Assembly (NCBI RefSeq): GCF_004005375.1
Contig: NZ_RZUF01000003.1
Location: 47,132-111,131 of the forward strand
DNA: 64,000 nucleotides
DNA from: Rheinheimera sediminis
GTDB lineage: Bacteria; Pseudomonadota; Gammaproteobacteria; Enterobacterales; Alteromonadaceae
Reading direction: 5' to 3'
The position numbers and the translations under genes were made by a program. Below the pieces are notes generated by a model that had not been told where the DNA came from, ran no database searches, and was given only the letters and a program-made list of their open reading frames with translations. The first letter of the stretch is position 1. Each line of letters starts with the position of its first letter. This document shows, piece after piece, positions 9,059-48,200 of the stretch.

Positions 9059-11116
9059 GTGACTGCTTTGAGTTTATTGTTCTATTCAGTGTTACTGCTA
9101 TTGGCAACCCCCTTAGTGTTGCTTTATCTGCTATTGCGCTCGCGCAAAGACCCGGCATATCGCCAGCGTTTTGCGGAGCGTTTCGCTTTAACCTTACCTG
9201 CAGCTTCAGCTAAAGACGGCATAGTGCTGCATACAGTCTCTGTAGGGGAGTTTAACGCCGCCAAGCCTTTGATTAAACAGTTGTTAGTGCAGTACCCGCA
9301 ACTTCCCTTAACTATCACTTGCACCACACCTACAGCTTCAGCCGCTATTGCTAAGCTAGTGGCTGAACAGCGCGAATTGGGCCGCAAGCTAGAGCATTGT
9401 TACCTGCCTTTTGATTACCCTGTATTGATGCGGCGCTGGCTGAGTTTTATGCAGCCGCAGTTGCTACTGATTTTAGAAACTGAGCTGTGGCCTAATCTGA
9501 TAGCGAATTGCAAAGCGCTGTCTATTCCAACTTTGGTGGTCAATGCGCGTTTATCGGCACGTTCAGCCAAAGGTTATCGGCGTTTTAGTTTTTTCACTCG
9601 GCCTATGCTACAGAACATCAGCCAAATTCTGACGCAGGATAAAGCCAGTGCCCGCCGCTTTTTAGCTTTGGGTGCAAAGCATGTGCAGGTGGCAGGTAAC
9701 TTAAAATTTGAACTGGATGTGTCTAAAAGCAGCATTCAACTGGCGCACAGCTTAAAACCTCTGTTGCAAGGCCGGGCAGTCTGGGTGGCTGGCAGTACTC
9801 ATGTGGGTGAAGATGAGCTGCTTATTCAGGCTTATCAGCAATTAAAAGTTGTGTTCCCACAGCTGCTGCTGGTGCTGGTACCACGACATCCGGAGCGTTT
9901 TGATGCTGTGGCAGAGCTATTACAACAACAGCAACTGAACTTTGTCCGCCGCAGTGTGAATGGTTTGCCCGATGTCAGCACCCAAGTCTGGCTTGGCGAT
10001 TCGATGGGCGAGTTATTAAGCTGGTATCAACTCGCTGATTTTGTTTTTATCGGTGGCAGCCTGATTGAACGTGGTGGCCATAACCCGCTGGAAGCTATGG
10101 CTTTTGGCAAAGCCGTTTTATCCGGCCCTTATGTGTTTAATTTTCAGCTGGTGTTTCAGTTGCTGCAACAGCAGCAGGCTTATGTTCAGGTAAGTACAGT
10201 GACTGATTTGGTGAGCACTGTAGCTCAACTTATTCAGCAGCCAGAGCTTGCTATTCAGACCGGCGCTAAGGGTTTACAGCTGTATCAGCAGCAACAAGGT
10301 GCAGTGGCGCGGATTATGGCAAAAGTGCAGGAATTAGTGCCTATGGCTGAAGTTGAAAAGTTAAATCAAGGCAATAACTTAGCCTGGTTTGACCCGCACT
10401 TTTATCCGAACTTTGAGTTGGCTTACTTCCAAAGCGAATTCTGGTTGCAACAGGGCTTAGTCGCAGGTCAGTCGAAAGGCCGTAATACAGTTTGGTTTAT
10501 CCGCCAGCAGAATGCCAAAGAGGCGGTGCTGCGGCATTATTACCGAGGCGGTTTGGTTGGCAAACTGAATAAAGATAAATTCTGGCCAGAGCCTGCAGCA
10601 CAAAGCCGTGCTATGGCGGAATTTAGTTTACTCTGGCAAATGCGCTTATGGGGTTTGCCTGTGCCGCGGCCTTGCGCTGCTTTGTATCAAAAGCACGGCT
10701 TCAGCTATAGCGCTGATATTTTGATTGAACGGATCCCAGGCACCATAGACTTGGCGCACCTGCTGCAACAACGCGCTTTAACCAACTTAGAATGGACAGA
10801 GCTGGGTGCTTTAATAGCCCGCTTCCATCAGCATCAGGTGTATCACTCTGATTTAAATTGCCACAATATTTTGCTGGATAGTCAGGGCCAGTTTTGGCTG
10901 ATCGACTTTGATAAATGCGCTATTCGCCACGTAGCAGACTATCCTGATCAAAGCTGGAAAGCACAGAATCTGCAGCGTCTTTTGCGCTCTTTAAATAAAG
11001 AAAAACAGCAGTTGCCAGTCTTCCATTGGCAGAGCGACCAATTCGCTGCGCTTGAGCTGGGTTATCAGCAAGCGGGCCTGAACCAGACAAACCAAATCAT
11101 ACAGAGTACAAATTAA
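9059..11116 (+). CDS. waaA-kdkA: WaaA-KdkA fusion: Kdo transferase plus Kdo 4-kinase
   Basis: One uninterrupted frame encodes two LPS inner-core enzymes. The first 420 or so residues are WaaA/KdtA: an N-terminal membrane anchor, HTVSVGEFNAAKPLI with the catalytic-type Glu, ETELWPNLI, and GGSLIERGGHNPLEAMAFGKAVLSGP. The last 250 or so residues are Kdo kinase KdkA: a substrate region AWFDPHFYPNFELAYFQ, RHYYRGGLVGKLNKDKFW, and the kinase-like catalytic and metal motifs HSDLNCHNILLD and LIDFDKC. Transfer and phosphorylation of Kdo would therefore be coupled. The start is uncertain: TTG 8990, GTG 9059 or TTG 9068. I chose 9059 because it matches the usual WaaA N-terminus. yhiN overlaps by one base. 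Confidence 0.88.
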   Translation: MTALSLLFYSVLLLLATPLVLLYLLLRSRKDPAYRQRFAERFALTLPAASAKDGIVLHTVSVGEFNAAKPLIKQLLVQYPQLPLTITCTTPTASAAIAKLVAEQRELGRKLEHCYLPFDYPVLMRRWLSFMQPQLLLILETELWPNLIANCKALSIPTLVVNARLSARSAKGYRRFSFFTRPMLQNISQILTQDKASARRFLALGAKHVQVAGNLKFELDVSKSSIQLAHSLKPLLQGRAVWVAGSTHVGEDELLIQAYQQLKVVFPQLLLVLVPRHPERFDAVAELLQQQQLNFVRRSVNGLPDVSTQVWLGDSMGELLSWYQLADFVFIGGSLIERGGHNPLEAMAFGKAVLSGPYVFNFQLVFQLLQQQQAYVQVSTVTDLVSTVAQLIQQPELAIQTGAKGLQLYQQQQGAVARIMAKVQELVPMAEVEKLNQGNNLAWFDPHFYPNFELAYFQSEFWLQQGLVAGQSKGRNTVWFIRQQNAKEAVLRHYYRGGLVGKLNKDKFWPEPAAQSRAMAEFSLLWQMRLWGLPVPRPCAALYQKHGFSYSADILIERIPGTIDLAHLLQQRALTNLEWTELGALIARFHQHQVYHSDLNCHNILLDSQGQFWLIDFDKCAIRHVADYPDQSWKAQNLQRLLRSLNKEKQQLPVFHWQSDQFAALELGYQQAGLNQTNQIIQSTN

Positions 11117-12297
11117 TGCAGCAGTGGGACGTAATAGTTATAGGTGCAGGCGCAGCTGGTTTATTCAGCGCTATTGAAGCTGCCAAAAGAGGCCGTAAAA
11201 CCCTGGTGCTGGATAACGGCAAACGTATAGGCCGCAAAATTCTGATGTCGGGTGGCGGCCGCTGTAACTTCACCAATATCTACGCCAGCCCGGCTAATTT
11301 TTTATCGCAAAACCCGCATTTTTGTAAATCGGCGTTAATCCGTTATACCCAATGGGATTTTATTGCTTTGGTGCAGCAATACGGCATTGCCTATCACGAA
11401 AAAACTTTGGGCCAGCTGTTTTGTGACGACAGCGCCAAAGACATAGTGGATATGCTGCAACAAGAATGCGACAAGGCTGGCGTTTCTATTGCGCTGCAAC
11501 AAGATATTCAAAACGTTAGTTTTGCTGATGGAGTCTATACAGTCACTACACCTCAGCTTAGCCGCAGCTGTCAGAGTTTAGTGGTGGCCAGTGGTGGTTT
11601 AAGTTTGCCGAATCTAGGTGCTACAGCTTATGGCTTTCAGCTGGCCGAACAGTTTGGTTTAAATGTATTGCCGGTGCGCGCTGCTTTAGTGCCTTTAACC
11701 TGGCAACCGGCTGATAAAGCGGTATTTGAAGAAATCAGCGGTGTGTCTTTACCTGTTACGGCTGAAGCTAACGATGTGGTGTTTCCGGAAGATATGCTGT
11801 TTACCCACAGGGGCTTAAGTGGCCCTGCTATTTTGCAAATCTCCAGCTTCTGGCAACCGGGCGACGAGCTGATTATTAACTTATCGCCGCAGCAGGATTT
11901 AAACGAATTCCTGCTGGAGCAACAGCAAAAACACCCAGAGCAGGAACTTAAAACTATACTGTCGCGTTTGCTGCCAAAGCGTTTAGTCGAAAAACTGCTG
12001 GAGCTGAATGTATTTCAAAATCAGCCTATTAAGGCGCTGCACGCTAAATCCATCCAGCGTTTAGCCGACAGCCTGACTCATTATGTGTTTAAACCCAACG
12101 GCACCGAAGGCTACCGCACCGCCGAAGTGACTTTAGGCGGGGTCGACACCAACGAACTCTCGTCCAAAACCATGGAAGCAAAAAAACAACCAGGCCTGTA
12201 TTTTGTCGGCGAAGTGGTAGACGTTACTGGTTGGTTAGGAGGCTATAATTTTCAATGGGCCTGGGCATCCGGTTGGGTGGCAGGGCAGTACTGTTAG
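11116..12297 (+). CDS. yhiN: YhiN/HI0933-family FAD-dependent oxidoreductase
   Basis: Flavoprotein of the HI0933 family (predicted NAD(P)/FAD-dependent oxidoreductase; physiological substrate unknown). It shows the FAD dinucleotide-binding motif VIVIGAGAAGLFSAIEAAKRG (about 6-26), then RIGRKILMSGGGRCNFTN (about 36-53) and the C-terminal FAD motif GLYFVGEVVDVTGWLGGYNFQWAWASG (about 360-386). At 393 residues it is full length. Its ATG shares one base with the stop of waaA-kdkA, so it is translationally coupled. A short diverged copy of the 3' end lies at 13056-13095. Confidence 0.92.
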   Translation: MQQWDVIVIGAGAAGLFSAIEAAKRGRKTLVLDNGKRIGRKILMSGGGRCNFTNIYASPANFLSQNPHFCKSALIRYTQWDFIALVQQYGIAYHEKTLGQLFCDDSAKDIVDMLQQECDKAGVSIALQQDIQNVSFADGVYTVTTPQLSRSCQSLVVASGGLSLPNLGATAYGFQLAEQFGLNVLPVRAALVPLTWQPADKAVFEEISGVSLPVTAEANDVVFPEDMLFTHRGLSGPAILQISSFWQPGDELIINLSPQQDLNEFLLEQQQKHPEQELKTILSRLLPKRLVEKLLELNVFQNQPIKALHAKSIQRLADSLTHYVFKPNGTEGYRTAEVTLGGVDTNELSSKTMEAKKQPGLYFVGEVVDVTGWLGGYNFQWAWASGWVAGQYC

Positions 12298-12971: not shown

Positions 12972-13453
12972 ACTCTCCGCTCTTTTGTTAATAGAACAGG
13001 CCAAGAAACCTGAACCCGATGCTTCTACTTTGTTGGTTAATTCGCAGAGATTAAAGGTTGGTTAGGCCGCCAGAACTTCCAGTGGGCTTGGCATAGGGTT
13101 GAGGCAAGTGTAACGCTGTTGTCCGGTAGTTTTCTTAGATCTTTTGTGTTGGCACTATCTGCCAAAACCTGAGATTCGTCATAGTGACACACTTGCGTTA
13201 GTTGCTTCTTTTTTGAACTACAACCACTGGTTAAATTGCCAGATTTTGCCCTTGAGTAAATTGAAGAACAACTAGCGTACTGGCTGTATACATTTTGTCG
13301 GATGCACATTTACTGATTTCAGAAAAATTTATTGAAATAGAGGTACATCAGAGTTAGTTTGGTATGAGTAAAATTCAGGAAAGAAGGCAGAAAAAATGTT
13401 CGACTTGCGGGCAGGCGGCCTTTGAAAACGGATTGTTATGAGTCTTTCGCGCC
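12972..13453. other. Gene-poor scar between yhiN module and cassette array
   Basis: Apart from the yhiN-like fragment I find no gene. A 25-codon frame at 13364-13441 (starting MSKIQERRQKKCSTCG, with a Cys pair) has coding-like composition and may be a truncated zinc-ribbon protein, but the evidence is weak. GTTATGA at 13435-13441 could be the right-hand core of a lost attC site at the edge of the array. Confidence 0.4.
13056..13095 (+). pseudogene. Diverged fragment matching the yhiN 3' end
   Basis: Bases from GGTTGGTTAGG (13056) to TGGGCTTGGCAT (about 13095) match yhiN around 12229-12268, and the translation GWLGRQNFQWAW parallels GWLGGYNFQWAW of YhiN. Only about 40 bases are alike and the surrounding frame is closed. 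This looks like a relic of a second yhiN copy, or of an insertion that duplicated the gene end. Confidence 0.5.
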
Positions 13454-13474
13454 ATGTTACAGAAGGAGTTGAAC

Positions 13475-14230
13475 TTGAAATATCTTGCTAGATTTCAGAA
13501 TAAAATGATGTTTCTCGTTGGTTTTATTTCTTTGTATTTGATATTTAAAGAATCTACAGCTTCAATGCTCCCGATTCTAATAGGTTCAGTTGTAGAAACT
13601 CTATTCGTCAAAAGCAGATTTTCTGAAATTTCTTTTGCAGTCTCATCTGGTTTGTTTGTTGCTTTCCTTGTTTGGTTTGTTGATATCTATATTCAAAAGG
13701 CGATTAAGTTAAGAAGAAGGAAGGTTCATATTCAGCAATGGGCTTCAAGTCTTTACGAAAGTGCTAGGTGTATACATTACCGCCTTATGGAGTTTTGCTT
13801 GGGTAAGGATTACGACGAAATTACTATTTTTGGCCCTCCGCGCTCAAAAACTGCGCTTGAGCTTAATAGTAATCAATGGTCAAAGCCAATTGAGGCGACG
13901 AAAATTAGGTGCGAAATTCAGGCTATTACTGAAATATCCAAAGACTTTAGGAACTCGGAAGATGTCTTCGATGATGAAACTTGTATCCTTGTCGATAAGT
14001 TATACAGGCAGTGTAAGGACTCAGATTCATCTCTCCACACGACAGAGGAGTTTAAATCACACAGGCAGTTTGTCCTAGCTAGAGATGTAGTTCACAGTGT
14101 TGTAGCGTTACTGCAAAATCCTTTACTGCATCAATCATGGAAAGGCCATCCGGTTCATGGCTTCGAAAAAAAGATTATTTCTCATAACAAGTCAAAGCAG
14201 AAAGCCAGTGCTATTTTCGTTGCACCTTGA
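13475..14230 (+). CDS. Two-helix membrane protein of unknown function (cassette 1)
   Basis: AT-rich gene encoding about 250 residues. Two N-terminal transmembrane helices (MMFLVGFISLYLIF and ISFAVSSGLFVAFLVWFVDIYI) are followed by a basic segment KLRRRKVHIQQW and a soluble C-terminal domain of about 160 residues that I do not recognise. ATG 13454 has no ribosome site, whereas TTG 13475 has AAGGAG seven bases upstream, so I prefer the latter. Base composition and codon use differ from the LPS genes, which suggests transfer. attC1 follows 74 bases after the stop. Two-helix proteins with cytosolic domains are common in cassette and defence contexts, but no function is assigned. Confidence 0.65.
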   Translation: MKYLARFQNKMMFLVGFISLYLIFKESTASMLPILIGSVVETLFVKSRFSEISFAVSSGLFVAFLVWFVDIYIQKAIKLRRRKVHIQQWASSLYESARCIHYRLMEFCLGKDYDEITIFGPPRSKTALELNSNQWSKPIEATKIRCEIQAITEISKDFRNSEDVFDDETCILVDKLYRQCKDSDSSLHTTEEFKSHRQFVLARDVVHSVVALLQNPLLHQSWKGHPVHGFEKKIISHNKSKQKASAIFVAP

Positions 14231-14303
14231 TAAAGCAGGCAAGCCTTAAGAATAGTATGCATTCAAGAGTGATTTCAGTGAAACAATCTTGCTGCAAAAC
14301 AAC

Positions 14304-14384
14304 TCATAACAAGCGCCTTAAACAATGCGGCCTGCGGCCGCTGGACTCGCAACAAGTTGCTCGCCGTCTAGGCGATAGTTATAC
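14304..14384 (+). repeat. attC-like site 1
   Basis: Left core TCATAAC (14304-14310), then AAGCGCCTTAAAC. The right side reads GTCTAGGCG followed by GTTATAC (14378-14384). CGCCT pairs with AGGCG with an unpaired T beside it, and ATAAC pairs with GTTAT. The pattern resembles Vibrio VCR sites, which also start ATAACAA-CGCCT and end AGGCG. The right core sits 12 bases before the next start codon. Confidence 0.65.
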
Positions 14385-14395
14385 CAGTCAAACTT

Positions 14396-14875
14396 ATGCA
14401 TACATTTTTTAATCTGAAAATTAAAGAAACAAATGACAAAATGAGGCAGCTATTAAAGGCTCATGTTGAACCTTTTTTAAAAGAGCACGGTTGGCATGGA
14501 AAGGGCTCCAAATTTAAACGTATCGCGAATGGCCAGTATCAAACATTAGATTTTCAATTTAATAAATATGGCGGAAGTTTTGCTGTAAATTTGGGAGTTG
14601 TGGAGCCAGTAGAAAATTTTTACGGTTCTAACTCTGAAAATTTGAAGTTTATTCGCAGCCAAAGACTTGGCTCGCTCAATAAAAGAATTGTTAAACGGAA
14701 AAACATGGATCATTGGTTTAACTTCATGTTGGGTGTACTAATTTACGTTCCTGCCTATAGACGAGCCGTCTCGGAACTTTTGAAAGTCTATATTTCTCAG
14801 GCTGATTTAACTTTTGAAAGTATGCAAAAATCAATTAAAGCTGGTGTAGCTTGCATACACTTGGAAAAGGTATAA
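14396..14875 (+). CDS. DUF4304 domain protein (cassette 2)
   Basis: A 159-residue soluble protein with the DUF4304 pattern: FLKEHGWHGKGSKFKR (about 28-43), then GQYQTLDFQFNKYGGSFAVNLGVVEP (about 47-72), where Q-x-x-x-F-Q and F-x-V-N-L-G are the recognisable parts. The biochemical role of the family is unknown. Family members are often found in accessory and cassette settings. The start ATG 14396 lies 12 bases after the attC1 right core, and the stop codon TAA is embedded in the left core of attC2, which is a compact cassette layout. Confidence 0.75.
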   Translation: MHTFFNLKIKETNDKMRQLLKAHVEPFLKEHGWHGKGSKFKRIANGQYQTLDFQFNKYGGSFAVNLGVVEPVENFYGSNSENLKFIRSQRLGSLNKRIVKRKNMDHWFNFMLGVLIYVPAYRRAVSELLKVYISQADLTFESMQKSIKAGVACIHLEKV

Positions 14876-14970
14876 CAAACCACTGTAGTCGCTCACTGCG
14901 TTCGCTAGGACAAAAACACATGGGCTGTCTCGCTTCGCTCGCATTTTAGCCCCTAAGTGGGGTGTTATAG
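14870..14970 (+). repeat. attC-like site 2 (best paired)
   Basis: Left core GTATAAC (14870-14876) overlaps the DUF4304 stop. The inner arm CCACTGTAG pairs with CTAAGTGG on the right side, with a single unpaired G, which is the classic extrahelical base of attC. The right core is GTTATAG (14964-14970). The middle is long and GC-rich with further partial pairing. The next start codon is 10 bases away. Confidence 0.78.
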
Positions 14971-14979
14971 GGCAAAATC

Positions 14980-15225
14980 ATGGAAGTAACAGCATCTCAT
15001 TTGGTAGGAATAGTTTTTATGTATATTGGTGCATCATTAGTACTCAAGGGAGATGTGAATTTTGAATATGGCATAACAAATGGAGCGAAGAGAACTAAGT
15101 TCATTAAATCAAAAACGAGCAAACTAGTTGGCAACTCTGCAAAATTAGTTGGTGTTTTTATTGTACTTGTTGGAGTCGCCGTTTCTCTATTTGTGCCGTC
15201 AGAGCAAGTTCTGTTTACCATTTGA
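14980..15225 (+). CDS. Small two-helix membrane protein (cassette 3)
   Basis: An 81-residue protein with two predicted transmembrane helices, roughly residues 6-24 (HLVGIVFMYIGASLVLKG) and 55-75 (KLVGVFIVLVGVAVSLFVP), joined by a short basic loop (GAKRTKFIKSKTSK). I recognise no family. There is no Shine-Dalgarno, which is common for cassette genes whose start lies next to the attC right core (10 bases here). It is AT-rich compared with the chromosome. Confidence 0.6.
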   Translation: MEVTASHLVGIVFMYIGASLVLKGDVNFEYGITNGAKRTKFIKSKTSKLVGNSAKLVGVFIVLVGVAVSLFVPSEQVLFTI

Positions 15226-15235
15226 TGCAACAGCC

Positions 15236-15310
15236 CTATAACAAAAACATCAACTGGAAAACCACTCGCTGTAAAGCGCTCGCATTTTCCAGTTCTATTA
15301 AACGTTAGCG
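15236..15310 (+). repeat. attC-like site 3
   Basis: Left core CTATAAC (15236-15242), right core GTTAGCG (15304-15310). The inner arm AACTGGAAAA pairs perfectly over 10 bases with TTTTCCAGTT. It has 75 bases, within the usual attC range. Confidence 0.62.
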
Positions 15311-15386
15311 GGCTTTTATCTCATTAGAGTACTTAAACTATTAAATTATAGTACTGGCAACAATCACACTGCAGGAGCAGACATCT

Positions 15387-17126
15387 ATGAAGGGAATCAT
15401 TCGGTTTTTGAAATGGGCATTCGCCGTCATTGCAGTGATTGGCATTGCATCGCTTGTGGCGGGTTTGTCGTTTCGCTCGGGGTTAGGCACTCCAACCACT
15501 GAATTCAAAGAAAAAGCAGTGTATGCACCGCATGGCGTAGTGGCGACCAGCCAACCTTTAGCCAGTCAGGCTGGTTTGGTCGTGCTGCAAAATGGTGGTA
15601 ATGCCGTAGATGCAGCAGTGACCGCGGCGGCCGTGTTGAGTGTAGTGGAACCTTATATGACCGGTATTGGCGGCGATATGTTTGCTATGGTTTGGTTGGA
15701 GCCTGAGCAGCGCCTGATCGGTATCAATGGCAGTGGCCATGCCGGCACGTTGATGACGCTCGACAAATTAGCGAGCCGCAATCGTGTACCAGACGAGGGC
15801 GCTCAATCTATTACCTTGCCTGGAGCGTTAAGTGGCTGGGCAATGTTGTTGGAAGCCCATGGCACAATCAGTCTGGCACAAGCGCTGGCACCAGCTATTG
15901 AATTGGCCGAAAAAGGCTTCCCAATCTCTAAAACAACAGCAGAAGAATGGGGCCTTTTTGAAAGTAAAATCAATTATGACCAAGGGGCAAGAAGCACCTT
16001 TTTAATTGAAGGCGGCCGGACACCTGTTGCCGGTGATAGGTTTTTGAATCCAGACTATGCTAACACTCTGAAACTGATCGCAGCACAAGGTCCGCAGGTA
16101 CTGTATGGTGGTGAACTGGGTGAGAAAATTGCTGCAAGAGTACAAGAGTTAGGTGGCTTTTTAACCCAAAGCGACTTCGCCAATTATCAGGCTGAGTGGG
16201 TGGAGCCGATGTCAGTGTCCTATAAAGAATATCGTTTATGGGAGTTACCGCCGAATGGACAGGGCATTGCTGCGCTTGAAATGCTGAAAATCCTCGAACC
16301 CTATGATTTAAAGGCAATGCAGCATAATTCTACCACTTATTTACACCATCTTATTGAAGCCAAAAAGTTGGCTTATGCCGACCTCGAATATTTTGTAGGT
16401 GACCCCCAGTTTATGCAGATAAAAGCGGAACAGTTGTTAGATGATTCTGTTATCGCTAAGCGGCGCGCCTTGATCAAACAGGATCAAGCCATGGAGCAAG
16501 TTGATCCAGAAAAGTCGTTAAATACCAGCGACACGACCTATTTGAGCGTGGCTGACAAAGACGGCAATATGGTGTCTTTTATTAACAGCATTGCCGGGCC
16601 TTTTGGCTCAGGCGTTGTTGTCCCAGGCACCGGTTTTGCTTTACAAAATCGCGGTGTGGGTTTGTCGCTGCAACCAGAGCGCGCCAACACAGTTGCCCCC
16701 GGTAGAAAGCCATTTCATACCATTATTCCTGGTTTTGTCACTAAAGCCGATGCTCAGGGTAAGCAACAACCTTGGTTGAGCTTTGGCATTGTCGGTGGAC
16801 CTCAGCAGCCTCAAGCACATGTGCAAATGCTGTTGAATATGGTGGTGTTTGGAATGGATGTACAAGAAGCTATTGACGCGCCAAGGTTTCGCCATTGGGA
16901 AGGGAATAGAGTGAGCTTTGAACAAGGGATCCCACAGAGTACAGTGGACGAGCTTTATTCGCTCGGACATGCGCCGCAAAACCCAGTGATGGCTACCGTG
17001 CAGGGCTTTTTTCACGGCAATAACCCAGGACTGGTATTTGGTGGCGGACAAGGTGTTATGAAAACTGCCAACGGATATGTCGCAGGTTCTGATTCTCGTC
17101 GCGATGGGGTGGCAGCGGCACATTAG
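15387..17126 (+). CDS. Gamma-glutamyltransferase family protein (cassette 4)
   Basis: Ntn-hydrolase of the gamma-glutamyltranspeptidase family, which cleaves gamma-glutamyl bonds (glutathione or related compounds) and self-processes at a Thr. It has 579 residues. One N-terminal hydrophobic helix (about 9-28) would export or anchor it in the periplasm. Family motifs: GGNAVDAAVTAAAVLSVVEPYMTGIGGDMF (about 70-99), LPGALSGW, ELPPNGQGIAALEML, and the processing site TSDTTYLSVADKDGNMVSFINS, where the second Thr of DTT or its neighbour is the nucleophile. Unlike typical enzymes the TTH is TTY. AGGAG lies upstream of ATG 15387. It is large for a cassette. Confidence 0.88.
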   Translation: MKGIIRFLKWAFAVIAVIGIASLVAGLSFRSGLGTPTTEFKEKAVYAPHGVVATSQPLASQAGLVVLQNGGNAVDAAVTAAAVLSVVEPYMTGIGGDMFAMVWLEPEQRLIGINGSGHAGTLMTLDKLASRNRVPDEGAQSITLPGALSGWAMLLEAHGTISLAQALAPAIELAEKGFPISKTTAEEWGLFESKINYDQGARSTFLIEGGRTPVAGDRFLNPDYANTLKLIAAQGPQVLYGGELGEKIAARVQELGGFLTQSDFANYQAEWVEPMSVSYKEYRLWELPPNGQGIAALEMLKILEPYDLKAMQHNSTTYLHHLIEAKKLAYADLEYFVGDPQFMQIKAEQLLDDSVIAKRRALIKQDQAMEQVDPEKSLNTSDTTYLSVADKDGNMVSFINSIAGPFGSGVVVPGTGFALQNRGVGLSLQPERANTVAPGRKPFHTIIPGFVTKADAQGKQQPWLSFGIVGGPQQPQAHVQMLLNMVVFGMDVQEAIDAPRFRHWEGNRVSFEQGIPQSTVDELYSLGHAPQNPVMATVQGFFHGNNPGLVFGGGQGVMKTANGYVAGSDSRRDGVAAAH

Positions 17127-17205
17127 CAATCATCCCTGGTGTTTGTCCGCCCTTCAACCGATCAGTTGGTAGTGCTATCTACAAAAGCTGGAAGTTGGTT
17201 GATAT

Positions 17206-17298
17206 GGCTAACAAGCAAATCTTATTCGCCTATGCTGCACATGGGCTGCGACGGCAAAACGCTTGCGCGTTTTTCCGCGCTAAATTGGGTAGTTAGCC
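17206..17298 (+). repeat. attC-like site 4 (weaker)
   Basis: Left core GGCTAAC (17206-17212) is the exact complement of part of the right end GTTAGCC (17292-17298). Inner pairing between CAAATCTTA and TAAATTG is imperfect. A central hairpin AAAACGC-TTGC-GCGTTTT is present. The right core ends 6 bases before the next ATG. Confidence 0.52.
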
Positions 17299-17304
17299 AT
17301 CATT

Positions 17305-17757
17305 ATGAATATATCCCGTATACATGACACATATTTCTCAATCTCATTGCTCAGCGTTGTAATGGTACTTGTACTGGTCCTAGGCGACGCGATGTATATT
17401 GGTATTTGGTATTATTTAGCTATACCAATAGCTGCGTTATTGATTGCATGGGGCTTCAAGTCACCACCATTATTTCAAACCGGAGCGGTACTTGGACTGT
17501 CGGTTACATTTTTAATTTATCTTAGCCTCAACTGGAGCGCAGAACGTCCAGAGGGGCTGCTTGGGCTAGGCCATTTATTTTCATTGCCTGGTGCTGCAAT
17601 TGGGCTGGTTCTTAGTGCATATATAGTAAAGATGAGAAGCATCGAAGGCGTTTTGGTTGGTTTTACAATGGGGTTGCTAGGGGTTCTAGCCGGTTTCTTT
17701 ATTAACCAAATGGTTGTTTGTAACACTGTTATGTGGTGCGGAGTATTATCAGTGTGA
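17305..17757 (+). CDS. Four-helix membrane protein, unknown (cassette 5)
   Basis: A 150-residue, strongly hydrophobic protein with about four or five transmembrane helices (about 12-30, 32-48, 56-73, 88-105, 115-135) and almost no polar domain. I recognise no family. ATG 17305 begins 6 bases after the attC4 right core and has no ribosome site. The stop is followed two bases later by the attC5 left core. The compact layout supports a cassette gene. Confidence 0.58.
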   Translation: MNISRIHDTYFSISLLSVVMVLVLVLGDAMYIGIWYYLAIPIAALLIAWGFKSPPLFQTGAVLGLSVTFLIYLSLNWSAERPEGLLGLGHLFSLPGAAIGLVLSAYIVKMRSIEGVLVGFTMGLLGVLAGFFINQMVVCNTVMWCGVLSV

Positions 17758-17759
17758 AT

Positions 17760-17831
17760 GGCGAACGCCCGCACATGGTCGGACTGGTGTTCGGCTGCGC
17801 TCCAAACCAGCCGCACATGCGGGCGTTAGCT
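17760..17831 (+). repeat. attC-like site 5 (well paired)
   Basis: Left core GGCGAAC (17760-17766) and right core GTTAGCT (17825-17831). GCGAACGCCCGCA pairs with TGCGGGCGTTAGC with one mismatch. Further in, CGGACTGGT pairs with ACCAGCCG leaving a single unpaired A, as expected for an extrahelical base. It has 72 bases. Confidence 0.75.
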
Positions 17832-17853
17832 TGAATCATAAAAGGAGTAACTT

Positions 17854-18273
17854 TTGAGATATTCAAATGAAGAAATGGAAAATGCTTTGGCCGAGATTAA
17901 TCGTAATCAAAAACCTGTCTTGGCATTTATTGCTTCTCTCATTGGTGCAGTTCCAGCTATGGGAATGTATTTCTTTTTTGCGCAGATGGGGGGAGTTTTA
18001 TACCTTATGCTTGCTCTGCCGCCTGCGTTTGTAGGTTTGTTTGCTCGATTTGTTGGCCGTACTTACAAGGCAAAACATAGAATTTCAGTAGGTATCGTTG
18101 GCGCGCTGGTTCATGTGGCTGGTTGCTTATTACTTCAATTTAACCCGCTAATTTATTTACTGGCACCAGTAGCCTTTTTTATTGCCATGTCTGTAGCCAA
18201 AATAAAACTTAAACATATTCATGGCTTGGCAATTATTCAGGCGAATTTAGGCAAGTTAAGTGCTGAAAAGTAA
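17854..18273 (+). CDS. Small multi-helix membrane protein, unknown (cassette 6)
   Basis: A 139-residue protein with a short polar N-terminus (MRYSNEEMENALAEINRNQ) and four hydrophobic helices (about 20-40, 46-65, 78-95, 97-115), ending in a basic tail. I recognise no family; it resembles other small inner-membrane proteins of cassette arrays only in general design. TTG 17854 has AGGAG seven to ten bases upstream and is the evident start. The attC5 right core ends 23 bases upstream. No clear attC follows. Confidence 0.58.
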   Translation: MRYSNEEMENALAEINRNQKPVLAFIASLIGAVPAMGMYFFFAQMGGVLYLMLALPPAFVGLFARFVGRTYKAKHRISVGIVGALVHVAGCLLLQFNPLIYLLAPVAFFIAMSVAKIKLKHIHGLAIIQANLGKLSAEK

Positions 18274-18380
18274 TGACAGTCGTGCTCTTGGTTGCAATGC
18301 TTTTGGGTGTAGTGTGTTACAAGGCGGGGCACTTTGCGGTCTGCGCCCGCAGCAACTCTCACTGGCGTTTGCGCGCTAAA

Positions 18381-18409
18381 TAACCTGAAATTATCCCGAG
18401 TTCAGGTTA
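18381..18409 (+). repeat. Inverted repeat before the ASCH gene
   Basis: TAACCTGAA (18381-18389) and TTCAGGTTA (18401-18409) form a perfect 9-bp stem with an 11-base loop, 19 bases before the ASCH start codon. It could be a leader hairpin or an operator. It lacks the internal attC layout. Confidence 0.45.
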
Positions 18410-18427
18410 AATATTTAGGACATTTTT

Positions 18428-18904
18428 ATGCACCGATCAGTACAGCTGATGTGGGATGACTACCTTGCGCATCAGTCTCAGCTATCACAGTTCCCCACAG
18501 ATGCACCGCCAGCCTGGTATTTCTGCGACAACGAGACGGATGCTAATGAGTGTGCTCAGCTAGTCGTGAGCGGTACAAAGCGCGCAACATCACCATCACT
18601 ATGGTCTTTTGAAGCCAGCGGTGAGGCTTTGCCGCGTATAGGCGATTTGAACATAGTGACGGACTGGAATGGCAAGGCCGTATGTATTATTCGCACAACC
18701 AATGTACAGATCTTCCCGCTCAACGAGGTCACTGAGGCACATGCAAGAATTGAAGGTGAGGGCGACGGCTCACTTGATTGGTGGCACAAGGCTCATTGGG
18801 ACTATTACCATCACGAGCTCCAAGGCACTGGCTATGAGCCCAGGGCTGACATGCCCGTTGTCTTTCAAGAGTTTGAGTGCATATTCCCGGCAGGTGCGGT
18901 TTAA
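18428..18904 (+). CDS. ASCH domain protein
   Basis: A 158-residue protein with the ASCH (PUA-like RNA-binding) fold. Characteristic are VVSGTKRATSPSLWSFEASGEALPRIGDLNIVTDWNGKAVCII (about 46-88; the G-x-K-x-A-T and P-x-x-G-D motifs) and EGEGDGSLDWWHKAHWDYY (about 109-127; the W-x-x-x-H region). Related small ASCH proteins include nucleoside/amide hydrolases such as YqfB; whether this one is an enzyme is not decided by sequence. AGGAC lies seven bases before ATG 18428. It may be the last gene of the cassette array, but no attC-like site follows. Confidence 0.82.
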   Translation: MHRSVQLMWDDYLAHQSQLSQFPTDAPPAWYFCDNETDANECAQLVVSGTKRATSPSLWSFEASGEALPRIGDLNIVTDWNGKAVCIIRTTNVQIFPLNEVTEAHARIEGEGDGSLDWWHKAHWDYYHHELQGTGYEPRADMPVVFQEFECIFPAGAV

Positions 18905-19155
18905 TTCAGGCATTAGGCAATATGGAGTCATCCTGAAACGGGAAAATTAGTGTGAACCAGACTCTTTTATGACTGAAAGCTGGCCTTGTCTACGGCATCT
19001 TTGAGCGGCATCCATCATCATTTGCTCCCGCTCTGGTTTTGCTGCATTACATGCTGAGTCATGCCTTTGGCACCGATGGACGATTTTGGCATTTTACTGT
19101 TGATACTCAATGTAGCTGCGGTCTTGACCATCAGGCTTACTACAGCGCCATGAGA
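18905..19155. other. Array-edge spacer with one unexplained open frame
   Basis: No recognisable gene. A plus-strand frame from 18973 to 19179 (without an early ATG) reads 68 codons with natural-looking composition, including HAFGTDGRFWHFTVD, and runs into the end of the DUF2182 gene on the other strand. It could be a gene remnant at the right edge of the array. I do not recognise it. Confidence 0.3.
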
Positions 19156-22135: not shown

Positions 22136-22375
22136 TCCCGAAATCCAGTGTTTAATGAATTTATAGGTACAGTCTATTGGTCGCTTGATAGTGAGGATGG
22201 CAAAAATCCATCTGAGTTATTTTGTTTGGTCCCAATATGGTACTAAAGTGTAGATGGTATTTAGGTAAATTAGTGAATTTTTTGTGAGGTGTCTCAAGTT
22301 CTGCTGTGGAGGAGGGGGCAGTATCAAGCAGTTTTAAAACCCAACCTAAAACCAGCATGTACTGAGTAAAACAAA

Positions 22376-22405
22376 TCAGGCCTGACAGCACAGTATCAGG
22401 CCTGG
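22376..22405 (-). terminator. Terminator of the carboxylesterase gene
   Basis: TCAGGCCTGA (22376-22385) and TCAGGCCTGG (22396-22405) can pair across a 10-base loop, and on the minus strand are followed by TTTGTTTT. It lies just past the esterase stop. Each arm is also nearly self-complementary. Confidence 0.65.
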
Positions 22406-22426
22406 AGATATCAAACTCAGCGGGAG

Positions 22427-24049
22427 CTATTTTTTAAGGTCTGTCGCTTTTTCAACCAGATCCAAACGAGCTTTCCATGGGTCTACGCCATGCACTGCCT
22501 CGGCTTGCATAGTGAAATCCATGATATTGCCCTGTTCAGGGTCAAAAGCCTGCCAGGTTGTTAAGCCATCGCCATTCGGATTGCCGGTTTTGGCGAAGTT
22601 GACTACATAACTAAAAGGCAGGGCAGAGGCTTTTTTGTCTTGCTCTGTCAGAGCCTCGTATTTTTTATCTATGGTTTTAAAGAAAAATGGAATTTCGGCA
22701 GCGTGTTGAGCGCCTTGACCGTCACGAATGGCTTCTGCCACATAACTAAAACGATAGAGGTAAGCCGCTTGACCCAGAGCTGTCATTTTCTTCGCAACAT
22801 AGCGGGCAGGTTCCTGCATGCCCCTGTCCTGACCTACCATAAAGTTCAGCAACTGCAGCGGCAACTCGGCTTTTGCATCATAAGCCTGGCGCGCTTCCTC
22901 AGCATGGGGGCCAAAAGATGCAAACAGGCTGTCTTTATCAGGCGACATAGTAAAACCTATATCCTGACTGGTGGTTCCTACCATCACTGGGATTTTGGCA
23001 ACCTGGGCTGTTTCTAACATCTGCTGTGTGCTGCCTAAAACTGTATGGCCATCCGCCAGCGGACCTCCAACATAAGTGGGTTTGCCTTCTGCAGGCTGAA
23101 AGAAATCCATCAGGCTTAGCCCGTCTAAAACCGCTTCAGCCGATAAGGCGCGCATTTTGGCGATAGCCTCAGGGTCGTCTTTAGCTATACCGTGTTTTTC
23201 AGCGAAGTTCAGGCCTATTTGTTCTGCTGAAGGATTCTGCTCTGTGCCTTCAGTTAAACTGCGCTCTCCCATTAATGAGCGGCCGCCGCCTGACATAATA
23301 ATGGCGCGTTGAAACAACGCTTTACTGGCCGGAGCTTGCATCAGAGTATGGACTGAGCCACCGCCAGCAGATTCGCCCATAATAGTGATCTGCTCTGGAT
23401 CTCCATGAAAAGCTGCAATGTTGTCTTTCACCCATTTCACCGCAGCTATCTGATCCATAAAGGCGTAATTACCCAGTTGCCCTTCTTTGGCCGCAGTTAA
23501 GGCTGGGTGGGCAAAAAATCCAAACCGTCCTAAGCGGTAGTTAAAACTAACAAACACTACCCCAGCTTTGGCAAATTCAGCACCGTCGTATACGGCAGGC
23601 GAAGCGCCGCCATTGACGTAACCACCACCATGGATCCAGATCAAGACTGGGGCTGGTTTGGCTTGTTCAGCCGGAGTCCAGACGTTCAGGTAAAGGCAGT
23701 CTTCAGCCGGAGTTTCTCCTAATGGCGCTGCATCACTGGCAAAGGGTTTTTGCATACAGTCGTGACCAAAGCTAGTGGCCTCTCGCACACCAGACCAGGC
23801 CGCTACAGCTTGCGGCTCACGCCAGCGGTTTGCCCCAACAGGTGCTGCTGCATAAGGAATGCCTTTATAAATCTCAATATTCTGCGCTGTCACGCCTTGT
23901 AATTGGCCGCTTTCGATAGTGACAAGCGGCTGCTTTGTTGCTGGTGAATTGTCGCTAGGTTTAGCCGTTGTGTTATCGCTACAGCCACTGAGCAGTAAAG
24001 CTGCGCTCAGAGCCACCAGCAGTAAGCTTTTTGGTGTTAAAACAATCAT
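22427..24049 (-). CDS. Type-B carboxylesterase, lipoprotein
   Basis: Alpha/beta-hydrolase of the carboxylesterase B (para-nitrobenzyl esterase) family, 540 residues. The N-terminus is a lipoprotein signal ending LLLSGCSDN (lipid-modified Cys about 23), so it is expected outside the cytoplasmic membrane. Oxyanion motif WIHGGGYVNGGAS (about 136-148), nucleophile motif IMGESAGGGSVH (about 223-234), and the catalytic His probably in QGAQHAAEIPFFF (about 450). EDCLYLNVWTP is also family-typical. ATG 24049 has AAGGGG upstream. It is followed by its own terminator, so it is probably monocistronic. Substrate is unknown. Confidence 0.92.
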   Translation of the reverse strand: MIVLTPKSLLLVALSAALLLSGCSDNTTAKPSDNSPATKQPLVTIESGQLQGVTAQNIEIYKGIPYAAAPVGANRWREPQAVAAWSGVREATSFGHDCMQKPFASDAAPLGETPAEDCLYLNVWTPAEQAKPAPVLIWIHGGGYVNGGASPAVYDGAEFAKAGVVFVSFNYRLGRFGFFAHPALTAAKEGQLGNYAFMDQIAAVKWVKDNIAAFHGDPEQITIMGESAGGGSVHTLMQAPASKALFQRAIIMSGGGRSLMGERSLTEGTEQNPSAEQIGLNFAEKHGIAKDDPEAIAKMRALSAEAVLDGLSLMDFFQPAEGKPTYVGGPLADGHTVLGSTQQMLETAQVAKIPVMVGTTSQDIGFTMSPDKDSLFASFGPHAEEARQAYDAKAELPLQLLNFMVGQDRGMQEPARYVAKKMTALGQAAYLYRFSYVAEAIRDGQGAQHAAEIPFFFKTIDKKYEALTEQDKKASALPFSYVVNFAKTGNPNGDGLTTWQAFDPEQGNIMDFTMQAEAVHGVDPWKARLDLVEKATDLKK

Positions 24050-24342
24050 TAGTTTCCCCTTGTCAATTGAAGGTCAAAACAAACGCACAGCTTCGGCCAT
24101 TTTTTAGCTCTTTGTAGTTCTGTTGCGTTGTCAGTGGCTGTAGGGCTTGTTACCAACTTTTGTAGTTTGAATGGGTAACTTAACAAGGATAAATAGCAAA
24201 GGCTATTTTTATCAGTCCAGTACAGGCTATTCAGGGCCGGTTCTACAGGGCTACAGCCTACAGATCAGACCAATAGCTGTTTGACCTGCTTTGCTTTTCA
24301 GGGCAGTGTAAAGGCAAGTTAATTCAGCAGCAGGAAGTAAGG

Positions 24343-47869: not shown

Positions 47870-47974
47870 TTAATTTTCAACAGAGCTTGGGAAAAGCGTG
47901 GACAGCCATCAACAGATGAGCCGAATGAGTGCGCCAACAGGCAGACGGATCACCGCCGCTATTAGCGCTCTTGT

Positions 47975-48068
47975 TTCCCTCCGCAGGTATTATCCTGTTC
48001 AGGTTCCACGGATTCCGCCCAAGGGCGGTCTCAGCTGACAAACAAGGTTTGTGCAGCACTCCGACAAG
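47975..48068 (-). promoter_or_regulatory. TPP riboswitch (THI element)
   Basis: On the minus strand the leader reads GTCGGAGTGC...GTCAGCTGAGACC, then a GC stem (CCGCCCTTGGGCGG), GGAACCTGAACAGGATAAT, and CCTGCGGAGGGAA. These are the conserved CUGAGA and ACCUGA...GGNUAAUNCC...GCGNAGGGA blocks of the thiamine pyrophosphate aptamer. It should repress the thi operon when TPP is abundant. The expression platform lies in 47848-47974. Confidence 0.95.
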
Positions 48069-48200
48069 CTAAGTGCAGCCAGCATAAACAGCTTTTTTTC
48101 AGGCGGCAAGGGGAAATTGGTGGGGTCGTTGTTTTGGACTTGCGGTTTCTGTGAGCTAATTGGTGGCGGTCATCGGCGTAAAGTTTTCCTAAAAGTGGAT

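Follow-up and report, generated by a model that had tools for sequence, protein, structure and literature searches.

An integrase-less gene-cassette array in Rheinheimera sediminis begins at a dispersed orphan attI-type site

How does a row of integron cassettes come to stand where no integrase gene (intI) accompanies it? The question is raised by a 64-kb stretch of the Rheinheimera sediminis genome (contig C24, 47132-111131), hereafter the window, in which seven plus-strand open reading frames (ORFs) fill positions 13454-18904. An earlier note described this stretch as a cluster of attC sites lacking an integrase (CALIN) in a chromosomal hot spot, with no integrase within 13 kb upstream or 45 kb downstream. 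The seven same-strand genes are confirmed, and the absence of intI extends to all of the 231-kb contig. We examined the locus within its assembly (4.49 Mb, 100 contigs) and against a panel of genomes, 22 from Rheinheimera and 39 from other genera. From sequence comparison, we consider it likely that the array consists of cassettes gathered at one of many dispersed orphan attI sites and inserted there by an integrase acting in trans.

The array contains genuine attC sites. Both strands of the whole window were searched with a covariance model of our own, not that of IntegronFinder. Our model was built from 36 aligned sites, taken from arrays adjoining intI in other members of the genus and family, and represents both stems (R and L) as well as the extrahelical base. 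At E<=10 the model returned only three sites, all on the plus strand, within 3 kb and far above background: site 1 (14304-14384; 65.1 bits, 6.3e-13), site 2 (14870-14970; 40.2 bits, 4.1e-7) and site 4 (17206-17298; 25.2 bits, 0.0013). Each has an 85-93% identical twin in an intI-adjacent array of another species, found for site 1 in L037 (93%) and for sites 2 and 4 in L044 (85% over 118 nt and 92%, respectively). A home-made finder relying on core and arm complementarity only did not separate the sites from shuffled sequences, and the covariance model was used in its place. A CALIN is recognized by at least two attC sites per cluster and no nearby intI; here there are three matches at E<=0.0013, and the intI genes of the genome lie only on contigs C35 and C15.

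Five of the six junctions had been credited with attC sites in the earlier note, and the model upholds sites 1, 2 and 4. Site 3 (15236-15310, plus strand) is weak, reaching 13 bits with the filters off and a bottom-strand fold z of -3.1, and 17760-17831 is missed by the model even with the filters off. The latter, the attC-like site 5 on the plus strand, is a long palindrome (bottom-strand fold z -3.4) at which the next cassette begins (cf. G021:3199407-3199651). The sixth junction, which the note had left without a site, carries a decayed attC (18303-18385, plus strand) that scores 9.1 bits at 18321-18379 with the filters off and is 81% identical over 58 nt to attCs of L044. Folded as single bottom strands, the five sites give z values of -1.5 to -3.4 relative to shuffles, and the sixth-junction relic folds no better than its shuffles (z +0.6). 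The L044 twin of site 2 has 14 extra nt between two TTTTAGCC repeats and folds far better (z -4.7), so that site 2 has probably lost these 14 nt.

The cassette ends provide a second line of evidence. Closure of a cassette circle joins the R'' of the attC to the 5' end of the same cassette, and the 5' end of a cassette within an array should therefore match its own 3' R''. Such a match is present over 9 nt in cassette 1 (5' GTTATGAGT, R'' ACTCATAAC at 14302-14310), 8 nt in cassette 2 (GTTATACC/GGTATAAC) and 10 nt in cassette 3 (GTTATAGGGC/GCCCTATAAC), with weaker matches in cassette 4 (6 nt only) and cassette 5 (9 nt with one mismatch). These matches set the left end of the array at G|TT (13435/13436). 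The array is thus longer than the 13454-18904 first assigned to it, starting further to the left and continuing past 18904 into a cassette 8 fragment, at which it ends truncated.

Directly left of cassette 1 lies an orphan attI-type element (13110-13441, plus strand) with its putative recombination point at the same G|TT; this element, its many dispersed copies and the right-hand truncation of the array had all been overlooked. An attI profile (R2), built without the window copy and including seven intI-linked copies, matches 13269-13441 with 139.7 bits (1.7e-42). The segment 13101-13443 matches many places in related genomes, including, in about ten integrons that have an integrase, the interval from intI to the first cassette, and from 13111 the flank shows an 81% DNA match to a copy on contig C35 of the same genome. 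The copies align up to ATTG|TTA and then diverge, the window copy just after 13435. The element combines homology to the site that separates intI from the first cassette, a cassette joined at the G|TT core, and the lack of an attC-type palindrome (single-strand fold z +0.99). The divergent intI that stands beside attI in a complete integron is absent, with no intI on the contig and no remnant upstream. By its sequence, the element is a genus-specific attI-type site of about 170-330 bp. A consensus scan for a sigma-70 promoter within it found none. A short ORF (13364-13441) lies within the conserved element; its window reading is MSKIQERRQKKCSTCGQAAFENGLL, with a CxxC motif and no family above the cut-off.

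This element is dispersed. The window genome contains 14 attI matches, just one of which, on C15, adjoins intI. Across the panel, 97 copies were found at E<=1e-10 in 18 of the 22 Rheinheimera genomes and none in the 39 genomes of other genera; by coordinates, 10 of the 97 adjoin intI. Nine copies lie in the complete genome G021, in which no intI scores over the cut-off. Among 84,980 species genomes, the attI DNA pattern occurs only in Rheinheimera and in gammaproteobacterial metagenome-assembled genomes without a genus name, and the element has no match in 50,697 phage records. REP-like sequence (repetitive extragenic palindromes) was considered as a carrier and dropped, as it lies beside only 3 of 29 members of the clade described below, and two of these three represent one shared place in two species.

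The orphan copies hold cassettes. We collected 58 of them with their surroundings, 51 of which have at least 1 kb downstream. A same-strand attC lies within 2.5 kb downstream in 29 of these 51 and upstream in none, with a chance expectation well under one, given 19 attC matches in the whole 4.49-Mb genome. The first cassette has an own-end match of at least 8 nt in 21 of 36 copies, compared to a mean of 2.6 and a maximum of 8 in 300 shuffles of the 5' ends among loci. Long arrays occur as well: nearly 20 attC sites extend over about 10 kb behind an orphan attI in L134 (6359-16142; contig C33 of G019, without intI), and eight follow one in G021 (L127). A lone attC without attI is present on contig C14 of the window genome (L181, around 98886-100292), at a place that holds an orphan attI in G021 and G016.

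The cassettes behind an orphan attI differ between species even where the chromosomal place is the same. In 41 cross-species pairs of orphan copies, the upstream flanks match at 86-99% and the attI is conserved, and 38 of the 41 have no similarity in the downstream 900 bp. One place is occupied in eight species (L123, L178, L236, L207, L246, L215, L221, L225), among which no common cassette was found; one of the eight has just 107 bp downstream. Both flanks are conserved between contig C5 of the window genome and G021:2984685, and the DNA that they enclose (1.4 and 1.8 kb) is unrelated. Comparison of flank matches with the attI list revealed further conserved places where only some of the species have the element.

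Could the window array be an ordinary degraded integron, which lost intI and kept its attI and cassettes? CALINs are commonly regarded as such (PMC9024848), and intI loss occurs in the genus: the gene is broken in G000, G001 and G012, and none scores over the cut-off in G007, G016, G020 and G021. The surroundings of the orphan copies argue for a different origin. In tblastn searches with an intact intI, an upstream match was found in 7 of 7 linked copies tested and in 0 of the 58 orphan copies, none of which has an intI remnant within 1.1 kb. The window attI belongs to a clade of 29 orphan copies (support 98/99) without any linked member, and no relative with intI at the locus was seen. Many members of this clade end CTTTGAAAAYGGATTG|TTA, while every linked copy ends CTTCTATTAAATTG|TT. 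Several orphan copies have a common upstream stretch that is absent from the intI-linked copies, and about ten copies per genome would require the loss of ten integrases. A degraded integron is, on this evidence, an improbable source of the window array. Some other orphan copies neighbour linked copies in the tree, and loss of intI may therefore account for these.

Genomic attG sites require little more than a short GTT-type core, which favours a second alternative: insertion of the cassettes at a non-classical attG site, with the left flank being host sequence. For E. coli, insertion at attG has been established (Loot et al. 2024, as cited in PMC12444791). The flank of the window array is a 170-330-bp attI homologue and not unique host DNA, its likeness to attI having a chance expectation of 1.7e-42, and we consider insertion at an attG site very unlikely here.

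Insertion at an orphan attI requires an integrase, and the window genome has two candidates. The intI on C15 (L030 6762-7796, minus strand), beside the linked attI, is interrupted right behind the HxLR box by ~70 nt of inserted DNA that carry an in-frame TGA; the break in the intI genes of G001 and G012 lies at this position too. The insert in the C15 gene is palindromic, REP-like DNA. The intI on C35 is intact and has attC matches on its upstream side, and its own attI is not of the dispersed type. An intact cognate intI is present in G005, G008, G010 and others. From the sequence we infer catalysis in trans. As the cognate intI of the window genome is disrupted and G021 has no intI, this activity may be past rather than current.

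It is possible to outline how the array would have formed. An attI-type element would have been copied to many places in Rheinheimera chromosomes without an integrase gene. Through attC x attI recombination at 13435/13436, an integrase supplied in trans would have inserted cassette circles, at least seven of which came to stand in a single orientation. Later decay would have shortened site 2, eroded junction 6 and the attC of cassette 7, and cut off cassette 8.

Several observations weigh against this proposal. In addition to the disrupted cognate intI and the complete genome G021 lacking the gene, 22 of the 51 orphan copies have no detected attC, and the GTT core is not intact in 9 of the 51. 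The 41 cross-species pairs are not independent, many coming from one place, and the attI tree is midpoint-rooted, with many weak inner branches. No clean empty sites for the element were found when left-flank-matched relatives were compared at five places, nearly all of which hold other DNA, because the loci are generally variable. The nearest to an empty site is L260 (G014), with about 75 bp compared to about 1.6 kb in G021.

The locus in the window is variable, in line with the hot spot that had been proposed, and its gene order is not kept across the genus. At this place, G014, G021 and G015 all lack the stretch from 12975 to about 22360-24260. An oxidoreductase gene (11116-12297) is closely followed in these relatives by the equivalent of window position 24260 (G021, G014) or 22362 (G015), and the intervening stretch is therefore an insertion in the window genome. 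The 3' end of the oxidoreductase gene recurs in degraded form at 13026-13101, immediately left of the attI element. At the right end, unrelated genes follow the cassette 8 fragment. Elsewhere in the window, a thiamine pyrophosphate (TPP) riboswitch was detected at 47958-48073 on the minus strand (72 bits).

All cassettes are on the plus strand, and the positions given for the first six include their attC. Family matches were obtained for three of the seven ORFs, and the other four proteins have none above the cut-off; defence-system models searched against the cassette proteins also gave no match. Cassette 1 (13436-14378) encodes a 258-aa membrane-anchored protein, cassette 2 (14379-14964) a DUF4304 protein (PF14137, 40.6 bits) and cassette 3 (14965-15304) an 81-aa membrane protein. 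Cassette 4 (15305-17292) encodes a gamma-glutamyltransferase of 579 aa (PF01019, 495 bits). It is followed by two cassettes for membrane proteins, cassette 5 with the attC-like site (17293-17825; 150 aa) and cassette 6 with the decayed attC (17826-18385; 139 aa). Cassette 7 (18386-18911) has lost its attC and encodes an ASCH-domain protein (PF04266, 88.9 bits) with homologues that adjoin attC in L172 and L173. The 5' fragment of cassette 8 (18912-19062), with a core decayed to ATTAGGC, is 75% identical over 154 nt to a cassette in L035 and 72% identical to one in L037.

Copies of cassette 4 occur in G019 (90%) and G017 (87%), where homology is bounded by the core sites, from 15298/15304 to 17295/17296 of the window. 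The unit lies between two attC matches in G017 and is flanked by attC in L176. Because the copies end at core sites and attCs flank the G017 copy, the gamma-glutamyltransferase unit can be classed as a true, unusually large cassette. The last alternative, that the intergenic repeats are REP or terminator hairpins between the genes of an ordinary accessory cluster, draws on the REP-like palindromes of the genus, such as the one inside the C15 intI, and is hardly tenable given model matches at junctions only, twins in intI-linked arrays, own-end matches and a gamma-glutamyltransferase unit that ends at core sites elsewhere; it is already refuted for sites 1, 2 and 4 and remains for site 5 alone.

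The attI element is also found beyond the genus. Copies with 79-89% identity are present in 51 records of Enterobacterales plasmids, 44 of which are conjugative. On the IncC plasmid pVIM-Exn692 of Enterobacter hormaechei (L268, 4048-6151), an attI of the window type is followed by a small multidrug resistance (SMR) efflux cassette and an alpha/beta hydrolase cassette, both with attC sites and own-end matches of 8-9 nt. The array of this VIM plasmid includes a third cassette and is not annotated as an integron in the feature table consulted. A second, near-identical attI lineage is present in 52 of 5,426 complete E. coli genomes, 31 times in the chromosome and 21 times on a plasmid. In both plasmids examined, one attC match lies behind this attI, with no annotated feature at the site. 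An orphan attI with one cassette (L267, 4018-4418) recurs near-identically on plasmids of E. coli, Shigella and Klebsiella and in the chromosomes of E. coli. The nearby recombinase is Xer-like and below the integron-integrase cut-off.

Taken across genomes, these data lead us to lean slightly towards a broader view of Rheinheimera as carrying a distributed integron. Here, a self-spread attI unit would occupy about ten sites per genome as stable landing sites, the cassettes of which are exchanged by one integrase in trans, with the same kind of unit in conjugative plasmids and chromosomes of E. coli, Shigella, Klebsiella and Enterobacter. One integrase could then serve many places. The E. coli copies and the IncC plasmid copy with its SMR efflux cassette indicate that orphan attI sites also travel.

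To our knowledge, IntegronFinder seeks no attI outside class 1 integrons, and orphan attI sites would for this reason escape notice. We found no description of a dispersed orphan attI family in the open literature, subscription journals being mostly beyond the reach of our search. CALINs and complete integrons occur at similar frequencies, and decay is the usual explanation for how CALINs arise (PMC9024848). Those that start at an orphan attI and carry different cassettes in each species offer a testable origin for such arrays, and our results suggest that integrase-less arrays can arise at spare landing sites and not solely as broken integrons.

The array itself is of a known kind; what appears to be new is its anchor, the dispersed orphan attI family holding cassettes. 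Like other CALINs, the array lies on a contig without intI and has attC sites that all point the same way, at least three of them supported by the model. Unlike them, it begins at a recognizable attI-type site with further copies scattered over the same genome. With the sedentary chromosomal integrons of Vibrio and of intI-bearing Rheinheimera it shares the attI sequence, insertion at G|TT and heterogeneous attCs, which are common to intI-linked arrays; it differs in having no integrase in cis and an attI that is multicopy rather than single. Insertion at attG likewise places cassettes away from an integron, but the site in the window is an attI homologue and not a degenerate genomic site. The Delta-attI-type gene cassettes of mobile integrons also have attI sequence outside its usual place (PMC12901181). 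In those cassettes, a full or partial attI lies inside the cassette, downstream of the gene, whereas the Rheinheimera attI stands 5' of whole arrays at many chromosomal sites.

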